From Candidatus Gastranaerophilales bacterium (lineage in GTDB: Bacteria > Cyanobacteriota > Vampirovibrionia > Gastranaerophilales > Gastranaerophilaceae), in contig CALUTM010000001.1 in the NCBI GenBank assembly GCA_944323705.1, forward strand, positions 1 to 64,000: 64,000 nt of DNA. Direction: 5' to 3'. The translations under genes and the position numbers were made by a program. The notes under the pieces were generated by a model, which was not told the origin of the DNA, ran no database searches, and was given only the letters and a program-made list of their open reading frames with translations. Positions within the stretch are counted from its first letter, which is position 1; every line of letters starts with the position of its first letter. This document shows positions 60,990 through 63,878 of this stretch, piece by piece.

Positions 60990-61697
60990 ATGGTTGAGAA
61001 AAAAAGAATACTTATTGTGGATGATGATACAGAAATCAGGGATTTGCTTGAGTTTGATATCTCTTCAAGCGGTTATTTTACCGATACGGCATCTGACGGC
61101 ATGGAAGGGCTGCAAAAAGCTTTGAATAATAAGTATGATTTAATTATTCTTGATGTTATGATGCCCAAGATGAACGGCTTTGACGTATGTAAGAATATAC
61201 GTCAGGCAAAAATAACCGTTCCGATTCTTATGCTTACCGCAAAGGGAACCATAGGCGATAAGACGAGCGGATTTGATAGCGGGGCGGATGATTATTTGGT
61301 TAAGCCGTTTGATGTTCAGGAGGTGCTTCTCAGGATAAGGGTTCTTTTAAGGCGAAATCAGCCTGCGGTGGAAAACCTCGGCTCTACCGAAATTCTTGAG
61401 GCGGGAGAAATAGAAATTTTCCCCGATACTCTGGAGGCTGTTGTTATGAATAAACGTATGAAGCTTACTCCGACGGAGTTTGAAATTTTGTACTGCCTAA
61501 TGCAGCATTTTAATAAAGCAGTGACGCTTGCTACGCTGTTGGAAGAGGTTTGGGGGTATAGCAGCGATGAGGATGTGAGAATGTTAAGGGTGCATGTCGG
61601 TGCTTTAAGAAACAAAATTGAGCCCGATACAAAAAATCCAAGATATCTTCATACGGTCACAAATGTCGGTTATAAATTAACTCCTTTTGGCGGGTAA
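60990..61697 (+). CDS. OmpR/RpaA-family response regulator
   Basis: The 235-residue protein has a receiver domain (about 4-118) with the acidic pair in IVDDDTEI, phospho-acceptor Asp in LIILDVMMPKMNG (about 53), and Lys in DDYLVKPFD. A winged-helix DNA-binding domain (about 140-232) has MKLTPTEFEILYCLM and VRMLRVHVGALRNKIE. It is coupled to a histidine kinase gene two bases downstream. In Cyanobacteria, RpaA/RpaB-type regulators show this domain plan. Confidence 0.95.
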   Translation: MVEKKRILIVDDDTEIRDLLEFDISSSGYFTDTASDGMEGLQKALNNKYDLIILDVMMPKMNGFDVCKNIRQAKITVPILMLTAKGTIGDKTSGFDSGADDYLVKPFDVQEVLLRIRVLLRRNQPAVENLGSTEILEAGEIEIFPDTLEAVVMNKRMKLTPTEFEILYCLMQHFNKAVTLATLLEEVWGYSSDEDVRMLRVHVGALRNKIEPDTKNPRYLHTVTNVGYKLTPFGG

Positions 61698-61698
61698 T

Positions 61699-63369
61699 AT
61701 GGTTCAGTTTTTTAGCAAAAGACGGCTTAAGATAGCGGAACAGATTATTATAGTAATATTTTTTGCAGTGCTTATTCCCATGACGGTAAGCGGTGTAATC
61801 ATAAATAATATTAACCAGCAGTCCAATCGTTCGCAGCTTCGTTCCGCGGCAATAATGATTGCAAACATTGTATCGGAAGAAATTGATGTTTTTGAACACT
61901 CAATTAATAACGAATTGGCACAAATCGCTGCTACGCTTGAATATTATAACTCACCCGAGCAGGAGCAAAAATATCTTGATACCATTATTAAAGACCTGAC
62001 TTTTTATAAAGAGCTTGATATAGTTAATAAGAACCAACTTGAATCGTATCAGGTTTACAATCTTCGGGATGATTATGCGGTTTTTCCCCGTGCTTTAAAT
62101 GACGGACGCTATCTTGTCGCAGTACTTGATATCAAAAATCTCCAAACCAATCTTTTTAGGACCTTAAGTGACGATAAACGTCAGATTTATGTTATTGCTG
62201 ACGGTCTTTTGGTTGCCTCCAGTAACTATTCTGAAAACGATTATATAGCCAGTTTATCGCAGCTTCCTAAAAAGTTGGAGACAGACAAGCCCGTCGTATA
62301 CGGTAATCTTAAGAACCAACCTCTTGTTTATCTGAAAAAGACTAATCCTGACGTTACAGTTATTGTTAATACAACTGAGGACGTTACGAAACATACAATA
62401 GACTATAACCGCGATAAAATAATACTTTCCATTATTATAACCATACTTACGGTATTCTTTGTGGTCGGATTATATACATCATACTTGTATATCAATATCC
62501 GTCAGCTTTTTAAGGCGATAATTGCGATATCAAAAGGAAACTATGAACGCAGAATACGACTTTTGACGAATATTTTTACTCCATTTGAGATTGTGTTCCT
62601 CGGAAACGAGTTTAACAGAATGGTTAATCAGATTCATAAATCCTATATTCAGCTTAAGAAGAAGAATAAGGAATTGAAACAGGTCAATGAATTTCGTTCA
62701 AATATGATTGATACGGTAAGTCATGAATTTCGAACACCGCTTACAAGTATACAGGGGTATACTTCAAGGCTCTTGCGTCAGGATATTGAAATCGATGAAG
62801 AGACAAGGATAAAATCTTTAAAAATCATTAAAAAACAATCGGAGCGATTAAAACGTATGATAGAGGATTTGCTAGTTATTCCTGATATTGAGGGGGCAAG
62901 GCTGAATGTTAATCTTGTGCGTGTTCCGATTAACTCCGTGATAGAAAGCTCCGTAATGCTTGTAAGAAATGATGTTAATAAGGAGATTATAAATAATGTT
63001 CGTAACTGCCAAATAGAGATTATAGCGGACATTGACAGGATAGAACAGGTTTTTGTAAACCTTATAGAGAATGCCATTAAGTATTCAAAAGATAATTCCG
63101 AAATAGTTTTGGATTATGAGATTCTTGATGACAGGCTTGTAATCAGTGTTAAGAACGATTATGACATAATCCCGCGGGAGAAACTGAAAACCCTGTTTGA
63201 TAAATTTACACGGATTGATGATAAAACAACGCGTACAACACGCGGCACGGGTTTGGGGTTATATATAGTTAAGGGGCTTGTTGAGGCGATGAACGGCGAA
63301 ATCAGGCTTTATTCCAATGAAGAATGCGGATTTTGCGTGAAAGTATTTATGCCGATAGCGGAAGTGTAA
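61699..63369 (+). CDS. Sensor histidine kinase
   Basis: The protein of 556 residues has a membrane helix (about 18-40), an extracytoplasmic Cache-like sensor (about 45-240), a second helix (about 242-265), HAMP (about 268-320), HisKA with phospho-acceptor His in DTVSHEFRTPLTSIQGYTSRLL (about 336), and HATPase motifs NLIENAIKYS (about 455) and GTGLGLYIVKGLVEAM (about 520). ATG 61699 is used; an in-frame TTG at 61687 overlaps the response regulator. The TAATATG junction implies co-translation with the regulator. Confidence 0.94.
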   Translation: MVQFFSKRRLKIAEQIIIVIFFAVLIPMTVSGVIINNINQQSNRSQLRSAAIMIANIVSEEIDVFEHSINNELAQIAATLEYYNSPEQEQKYLDTIIKDLTFYKELDIVNKNQLESYQVYNLRDDYAVFPRALNDGRYLVAVLDIKNLQTNLFRTLSDDKRQIYVIADGLLVASSNYSENDYIASLSQLPKKLETDKPVVYGNLKNQPLVYLKKTNPDVTVIVNTTEDVTKHTIDYNRDKIILSIIITILTVFFVVGLYTSYLYINIRQLFKAIIAISKGNYERRIRLLTNIFTPFEIVFLGNEFNRMVNQIHKSYIQLKKKNKELKQVNEFRSNMIDTVSHEFRTPLTSIQGYTSRLLRQDIEIDEETRIKSLKIIKKQSERLKRMIEDLLVIPDIEGARLNVNLVRVPINSVIESSVMLVRNDVNKEIINNVRNCQIEIIADIDRIEQVFVNLIENAIKYSKDNSEIVLDYEILDDRLVISVKNDYDIIPREKLKTLFDKFTRIDDKTTRTTRGTGLGLYIVKGLVEAMNGEIRLYSNEECGFCVKVFMPIAEV

Positions 63370-63381
63370 ACGGAAAATATA

Positions 63382-63410
63382 TTGATATATTTACATTCCG
63401 TTGGTATAAT
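63382..63410 (+). promoter_or_regulatory. Sigma-70 promoter of the first peptide unit
   Basis: TTGATA (63382-63387), a 17-base spacer and TATAAT (63405-63410) predict transcription from about 63417, immediately before the repeated unit. The second unit has only a weak counterpart (TTAACG at 63605, AATAGT near 63628). Confidence 0.7.
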
Positions 63411-63416
63411 TGTAAT

Positions 63417-63630
63417 GCACATTAAAAGAAGAATACGGGCAGAAGATTTTAACACATTTTAACTATCAGGAAAGGAGGTTAAAATGATAGTTAAAATCAC
63501 TGAAAGAGAATTAGTACTAATCATAATACTAATTCTCACAACCAAAGTCCTTTAATGAGGACACGGGTTTGGGTGGAATCAGCACCCTTACCTGTATTTT
63601 TATTTTAACGTATTTTTAGAAAAATTCAAT
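63417..63630 (+). ncRNA. Structured mRNA unit 1 with hydrophobic peptide ORF
   Basis: This unit of about 214 bases carries AATACGGGC near its 5' end (63432), which can pair with CCTGTATT (63591-63598), closing the molecule end to end. An 11-bp hairpin (63506-63516/63527-63537) lies inside the ORF, and a terminator-type hairpin with GGGTG/CACCC core lies at the 3' end, followed by TATTTTTATTTT. The unit is repeated at 63637-63866. Confidence 0.6.
63484..63555 (+). CDS. 23-residue hydrophobic peptide (unit 1)
   Basis: The ORF has a strong Shine-Dalgarno sequence (AAAGGAGG, five bases spacing) and ends in TAA. The peptide has a short charged N-terminus (MIVKITERE), a strongly hydrophobic middle (LVLIIILIL) and a TTKVL end. 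Size, single hydrophobic span and structured RNA resemble type I toxins such as the Ibs, Ldr or Fst classes, but no homology is claimed. Confidence 0.65.
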   Translation: MIVKITERELVLIIILILTTKVL

Positions 63631-63636
63631 AGTAAA

Positions 63637-63866
63637 ACAGTACATTAAAAAGAGAATACGGGCAGAAGATTTTAACAAACATTTGCACTTATTTCAACTA
63701 ATGAAAGGAGGTGAAAATGTTAGTTGAAATTAATGAAAAAGAACTAGCACTACTTGCGATAATGCTAATTCTACTCAATCAAATCCTGCACTGATTGCAG
63801 GTGGTAAGGGTGCGTTCATCACCCTTGCCCGTATTTTCATTTTAACGTATTTTTAGAAAAATTCAA
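63637..63866 (+). ncRNA. Structured mRNA unit 2 with hydrophobic peptide ORF
   Basis: This second copy of the unit has AATACGGGCA (63655-63664) perfectly complementary to TGCCCGTATT (63826-63835). The ORF-internal hairpin is 63741-63749/63763-63771, and the terminator hairpin has the stem GGTAAGGGTG/CACCCTTGCC. The 3' ends of both units share TTTTAACGTATTTTTAGA. lipA starts 13 bases after the unit. Confidence 0.6.
63717..63794 (+). CDS. 25-residue hydrophobic peptide (unit 2)
   Basis: The ORF has AAAGGAGGTG with four-to-six-base spacing and ends in TGA. The peptide parallels unit 1: MLVEINEKEL, then ALLAIMLILL, then NQILH. About half of the residues match unit 1, and charge and hydrophobicity patterns are kept. 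Paralogous peptides in tandem, each with its own RNA structure, suggest duplication of a functional unit. Confidence 0.65.
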   Translation: MLVEINEKELALLAIMLILLNQILH

Positions 63867-63878
63867 GAGTGAGGAATT

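Follow-up and report, generated by a model that had tools for sequence, protein, structure and literature searches.

Positions 63382-63869 of the window, by which we mean the whole stretch of 64,000 nucleotides of DNA analysed here, contain a tandem array of two units of about 200 nt, and each unit is probably a member of a new family of type I toxin-antitoxin modules. The host is a gut bacterium belonging to a cyanobacterial branch that does not photosynthesize. This reading is supported by a conserved ORF with its Shine-Dalgarno sequence, by covarying structures, and by a minus-strand promoter combined with a terminator inside the ORF. Since dozens of relatives were found, the family is apparently both undescribed and widespread. 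It would be a new family of a known kind, operating in the manner of AapA/IsoA or TxpA/RatA, and its place among type I systems rests on two features read from sequence: a small hydrophobic peptide that is conserved at the protein level behind a ribosome-binding site, and an overlapping antisense gene whose promoter and terminator are conserved. The sequence-only reading had compared the layout with type I toxin genes or membrane micropeptides; the comparative data now support type I, and we infer the toxicity of the peptide from architecture, distribution and precedent.

The pair is flanked, on the same strand, by a histidine kinase gene (61687-63369) and lipA (from 63879). Most elements that had been proposed for the pair were borne out (Table 1). 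The two units are direct repeats with 76% identity across about 200 nt, and their peptides of 23 and 25 residues show the claimed charged N-terminus and single hydrophobic span, a pattern that is kept in the copies from relatives. A strong Shine-Dalgarno sequence, AAAGGAGGT, precedes both ORFs, and the RNA is structured, with folds better than those of 200 out of 200 shuffled sequences. The sigma-70 promoter suggested in front of unit 1 agrees with the consensus at 11 of 12 positions. The sense terminator hairpin assigned to each unit, on the other hand, was not borne out: the hairpin is really a GGGTG...CACCC stem-loop, immediately followed by the closing stem's 3' arm, the terminator scan was passed by that of unit 2 only, and no sense terminator is established.

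Each unit runs from the 5' arm of the closing stem (ACATTAAAA..GAATACGGGCAG) through a 5' UTR and the Shine-Dalgarno sequence into an ORF of 23 or 25 codons with an internal hairpin, followed by a stop-codon hairpin, the GGGTG...CACCC hairpin and finally the 3' arm, which pairs with the 5' arm. For the ORF of unit 2, the program-made ORF list gives a 27-aa alternative that starts from an upstream GTG. A promoter-like TTGAAA-17-TAAAAT with TG before its -10, located at 63669-63697 on the minus strand, faces the junction between the units; it occurs in unit 2 only and was not counted as a part of the module.

Table 1. Features of the tandem pair in window coordinates, with the evidence for each.
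Feature	Position	Strand	Evidence
Sense promoter of the tandem pair, TTGATA-17-TATAAT, extended -10 (TG before -10)	63382..63410	+	Promoter scan
Unit 1 toxin-like mRNA, ends approximate	63419..63615	+	Fold z -9.3; R1 E=1.9e-37 (in R1 seed)
Unit 1 closing stem, 5' arm	63419..63442	+	Fold; compensatory changes among relatives
Unit 1 Shine-Dalgarno GGAAAGGAGGT	63469..63479	+	
Unit 1 ORF MIVKITERELVLIIILILTTKVL, 23 aa	63484..63555	+	Frame and second codon position conserved
Unit 1 closing stem, 3' arm	63590..63610	+	Fold, covariation
Unit 1 putative antisense promoter, TTGAAT-16-TAAAAT	63602..63629	-	Scan, conservation profile
Unit 1 predicted antisense RNA, about 100 nt, both ends inferred	63497..63595	-	Promoter, antisense fold, strand asymmetry
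Unit 1 putative antisense terminator hairpin within ORF, then minus-strand TTTC	63506..63537	-	
Unit 2 toxin-like mRNA, presumably cotranscribed with unit 1	63642..63852	+	Fold z -7.6; R1 E=4.2e-31 (in R1 seed)
Unit 2 closing stem, 5' arm	63642..63665	+	Repeat comparison, fold
Unit 2 Shine-Dalgarno TGAAAGGAGGT	63702..63712	+	
Unit 2 ORF MLVEINEKELALLAIMLILLNQILH, 25 aa	63717..63794	+	
Unit 2 closing stem, 3' arm	63826..63847	+	Repeat comparison, fold
Unit 2 putative antisense promoter, TTGAAT-16-TAAAAT	63839..63866	-	Promoter scan
Unit 2 predicted antisense RNA, about 100 nt, both ends inferred	63733..63832	-	Promoter, antisense fold
Unit 2 putative antisense terminator hairpin, 14 pairs, then minus-strand TTTTC	63740..63772	-	

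When 97 genomes of relatives were searched at the DNA level, 39 had matches, almost all of them in the same genus. From 60 loci in related genomes 66 full-length units were taken, and a covariance model (R1) was built from 55 copies. R1 matched 31 of the 58 genomes of the genus, in a patchy pattern and often with several copies per genome, and found no unit in the other genomes of the genus, including several that are at least 97% complete; the match counts include both strands, as the palindromic stems cause R1 to score the reverse strand weakly. Outside the genus, R1 scored weakly in further genera of the family, where its matches were often in tandem. Many of these matches represent a second subfamily with a different leader (AGGGTAAGCCCT...) and the same type of peptide (e.g. 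VDFSITEKALVLILLIILVLKH), in which the codons differ and the pattern of a charged motif plus a hydrophobic stretch is retained. A model of subfamily 2 (R2) matched 34 of 146 genomes of the class (12 of 66 genera) and 49 of 194 genomes of the phylum (14 of 95 genera), and with one weak exception all matches fell within one family of the order Gastranaerophilales. The window units were also recognized by R2 (E values of 5.8e-7 and 3.9e-6), so that the subfamilies are linked in the reverse direction as well. The covariance-model search of the clade, proposed with the sequence-only reading as a check, has been run, and the ORFs and structures proved to be conserved in dozens of copies, so that on the point of conservation in related genomes the proposal was not refuted.

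Nearly all of the 66 copies encode a peptide of 23-26 aa of one pattern with a strong Shine-Dalgarno sequence upstream; in two of them the ORF is shortened to 18 codons by a TGA. The consensus of the first 20 positions is MIVKISEKELLLIIALVLIL, with MIVKISEKEL as the charged N-terminal motif. Ile5 and Leu10 are invariant, Glu9 is nearly so, and positions 11-18 are almost always hydrophobic. The reading frame is maintained in 63 distinct ORFs, and within the codons that form the hairpin the entropy is lowest at the second codon position (0.42 bits, versus 1.06 and 0.85 bits at the others), as expected under selection for hydrophobicity. The hydrophobic run comprises about 11-13 residues, which is short for a membrane-crossing helix and counts against the toxin reading. 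At one locus (L101:1716-1916) the ATG has changed to ATA, the ORF hairpin is disturbed and the antisense -35 is weakened; this copy is a decaying module.

The units of relatives are structured as well, with a mean fold z of -8.5 (n=21). A consensus structure was scored with 55 copies (the set of 61 copies has a mean pairwise identity of 66%); 95% of its cells are paired, and 19 of its pairs exhibit compensatory change. Both sides were changed in 183 cells, compared with 60 +/- 7 after shuffling (a level of 183 was reached in 0 of 500 shuffles) and with at most 25 in slid controls, albeit the copies are related and such cell counts therefore overstate the number of independent events. In the stem that closes the 5' end upon the 3' end, double changes were seen at 5 of 10 pairs. 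A second stem, in which the 5' UTR pairs with the first codons, is predicted to bury the start codon: in thermodynamic folding of the full-length RNA the start codon was unpaired with a mean probability of 0.12 and the Shine-Dalgarno sequence with one of 0.42. The AapA-type combination of 5'-3' long-distance pairing and a sequestered start is present, with the start buried by the local stem between 5' UTR and ORF and not by the closing stem. When 3' trimming alone was computed, the ribosome-binding site was not freed (unpaired probability from 0.42 to 0.43, thermodynamic folding); computed removal of the 5' UTR arm frees it. A switch of the AapA/Hok type that is activated from the 3' end therefore gains no support from thermodynamic folding.

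The sequence-only reading had left an antisense RNA open, and a predicted antisense promoter and terminator are now found in both units. Of 61 distinct subfamily 1 sequences, 60 have the minus-strand motif CTTGAAA-N16/17-TTA(A/T)AAT at the 3' end; in essentially every unit the motif reads CTTGAAA-N16 or N17-GTTAAAAT. Among the 60 fitting sequences the spacer is 16 in 49, 17 in 10 and 15 in one. The corresponding minus-strand motif of subfamily 2, CTTGAAA-N16/17-TTATAAT, is present in 22 of 23 copies by a strict count. An antisense promoter score of at least 9 was reached by 94% of the units and by 20-27% in controls. Conservation amounts to about 2.0 bits at the TTG of the -35 and at most of the -10, drops to 0.2-0.5 bits in parts of the spacer, and ends just past the -35. 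The putative terminator lies downstream of this promoter; its hairpin is the ORF hairpin read in reverse, and the U-rich tract behind it derives from the Glu-Lys-Glu codons. The predicted antisense RNAs form three stem-loops. The region of complementarity takes in the greater part of the ORF as well as the stop codon and 3' UTR; the Shine-Dalgarno sequence lies outside it.

An A.C mismatch on the sense strand is a G.U pair on the antisense strand, and mismatches therefore reveal which strand is under selection. In the ORF hairpin, the sense strand has 39 A.C and 3 G.U. The bias is reversed in the closing and UTR stems, where 65 G.U stand against 8 A.C (Fisher p = 3e-19 versus the ORF hairpin), and the ORF hairpin is more stable in its antisense form in 36 of 44 distinct sequences (p = 2.6e-7), both p-values overstating independence because the copies are related. 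For the arms of the closing stem the sense strand is favoured by the G.U/A.C counts only and not by cofold energies. The opposite biases point to two structured RNAs on opposite strands under selection: the closing and UTR stems seem to belong to the sense RNA, and the ORF hairpin to its antisense counterpart. That structures on both strands evolve under base-pair constraint is supported by the comparison of the copies.

This asymmetry also bears on the question of whether the units are small mobile or repetitive elements, similar to MITEs, in which the complementary unit ends would be terminal inverted repeats and the ORF incidental. The opposite bias of the stems is unexpected from terminal repeats that act as DNA; in addition, the peptide is under protein-level constraint, promoters are present on both strands, and subfamily 2 keeps the peptide type despite an unrelated leader. 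Although the complementary ends, the scattered intergenic copies and the empty lipA-locus sites in relatives would suit such an element, we regard this explanation as very improbable.

Units are located among many unrelated genes, right after a gene on the same strand in 52 of 63 cases, and no common partner gene was found among their neighbours. The lipA site itself varies. It holds two units in the window genome and one in the close relative G003, whose LipA is 97% identical, and in some other relatives lipA follows straight after the kinase gene with no unit between them. A cis-regulatory leader, i.e. an attenuator or leader peptide, of the downstream gene would agree with the location of the pair on the same strand between the histidine kinase gene and lipA. 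Given that the downstream gene is on the same strand in only 34 of 61 units, that downstream genes are many and unrelated, and that lipA occurs without a unit, this explanation has hardly any probability, and a lipA leader was rejected from genomic context. At another locus (L167), just upstream of a lipA-like start, there is a long perfect inverted repeat (AATACAAGCAGGGGCGGC...GCCGCCCCTGCTTGTATT), the outer part of which resembles the closing stem.

The single unit of G003 (L053:2040-2360, CALUPJ010000109.1) has a promoter and first bases like those of unit 1 and is otherwise like unit 2, as expected of recombination between tandem copies. A third copy in the window genome, at contig position 121924-122075 (L115, about 1501-1652), is decayed; it has lost the 5' leader and start codon and retains the antisense promoter and hairpin. 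A complete unit, with peptide MIVQINEKELILITILVLLLKSL and a sense promoter of the TTGACA-TATAAT type, resides on the 40-kb phage contig IMGVR_UViG_3300010163_000078 (L179:350-560), which has tail and lysozyme genes; no further unit-bearing contigs were found in pattern scans of viral contigs. The gene that adjoins this unit has a start resembling that of a terminase small subunit.

Copies that are patchy, multiple per genome, scattered among unrelated genes, present or absent at the lipA site, phage-borne in one case and in part decayed have the distribution typical of type I modules. A non-toxic membrane micropeptide, which would modulate a membrane complex or signal envelope stress and have its level tuned by the antisense RNA, would be expected to come with the same peptide, the same Shine-Dalgarno sequence and the same evidence of an antisense promoter and terminator. 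We nevertheless consider it unlikely, as the patchy, tandem or scattered, decayed, site-variable and phage-borne copies are more in keeping with an addiction-like module than with a housekeeping subunit, and the units share no neighbour gene.

The promoter scan found no sense promoter belonging to unit 2 itself. When a match at 9 or more of 12 positions was counted, a sense promoter preceded 82% of 55 solo or first units and 0 of 8 tandem followers, with 9% in shuffles. As the followers have no sense promoter and retain their own antisense promoter, a single sense RNA would comprise several toxin ORFs, every one of them paired with a separate antitoxin.

Rfam contained no match for the units at gathering score, and at permissive thresholds it gave chance-level matches only, far below gathering. 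No family for the peptides was found in Pfam, NCBIfam, PADLOC, PHROGs or PDB sequences; among the Pfam/NCBIfam profiles, TatA_Rickett gave a sub-threshold match (E=0.022) to the peptide of one relative only. BLAST against phage and plasmid records returned no match, and a literature search found one cyanobacterial type I system, MsoT1/MsoA1 (PMC12390103), and nothing that combines Melainabacteria with type I toxins.

Several known systems share parts of this architecture. In TxpA/RatA, BsrG/SR4 and Fst/RNAII of Firmicutes, a convergent antisense RNA overlaps the 3' part of the mRNA for a small hydrophobic peptide; the TxpA, BsrG and Fst toxins are longer than the peptides described here, which match no NCBIfam or Pfam model. 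Ibs/Sib and Ldr/Rdl of E. coli encode very short hydrophobic toxins in tandem and scattered copies, each with an antisense RNA, which in Ibs/Sib covers the whole toxin gene. The Rfam, Pfam and NCBIfam searches revealed no sequence relation between these E. coli systems and the units.

Another parallel in organization is AapA/IsoA of Helicobacter pylori, a set of multicopy chromosomal modules in which the AapA3 toxin has about 30 aa and an 80-nt cis antisense RNA lies opposite the ORF; a 5'-3' long-distance interaction renders the primary mRNA translationally inert, and the target bound by the antisense RNA is the processed mRNA (PMC6733600). The present units likewise are multicopy, their 5' and 3' ends pair in a closing stem, and the antisense RNA predicted for them measures about 100 nt. 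They differ in that several loci are tandem with a shared sense promoter, and in that the ribosome-binding site is not freed by computed 3' trimming alone. In the Pfam and NCBIfam libraries the peptides matched no family.

According to a report on MsoT1/MsoA1 of Microcystis aeruginosa, type I systems had before 2025 been found in Proteobacteria, Firmicutes and Tenericutes only, and were then joined by this one cyanobacterial case (PMC12390103). As described there, the system has type I features, with a toxin of 63 aa, two predicted helices and a pI of 11.2, and a predicted antitoxin of 56 or 83 nt whose binding site is the 3'-terminal part of the coding region together with the 3' UTR (PMC12390103). 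It shares with the present units the phylum Cyanobacteria and the region predicted to be targeted by the antisense RNA. MsoT1 is unrelated to the peptides here, which have 23-25 aa, one hydrophobic span and mixed charges. The tandem and multicopy structured mRNA of the present units has no counterpart described for MsoT1/MsoA1 in the available part of the report (PMC12390103).

By analogy with AapA/IsoA (PMC6733600), we suggest a silent primary transcript and removal of the translatable form by the antisense RNA. The full-length sense RNA would be translationally silent, and a translatable form may arise through processing or co-transcriptional refolding. The antisense RNA would pair with the mRNA and thereby block translation or mark the duplex for RNase III. 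If antisense transcription were lost, the peptide would be made and inserted into the inner membrane, and growth would stop.

We further lean towards an old, family-wide lineage of modules in the Gastranaerophilales. In such a lineage the antitoxin terminator would lie within the codons of the hydrophobic toxin helix, which would tie the evolution of the peptide to that of the antitoxin, codon by codon. The sense leader would have been swapped wholesale between the subfamilies, with the antisense module and peptide type kept, and tandem arrays would use one sense promoter and one antisense promoter per unit.

The comparison of G.U and A.C mismatches between strands offers a sign of a selected antisense RNA that needs only a genome, and it could reveal other type I systems. 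If the present reading is true, a multicopy type I family extends across a dozen or more genera of Gastranaerophilales, and has escaped annotation because its ORFs are just 23-25 codons long.
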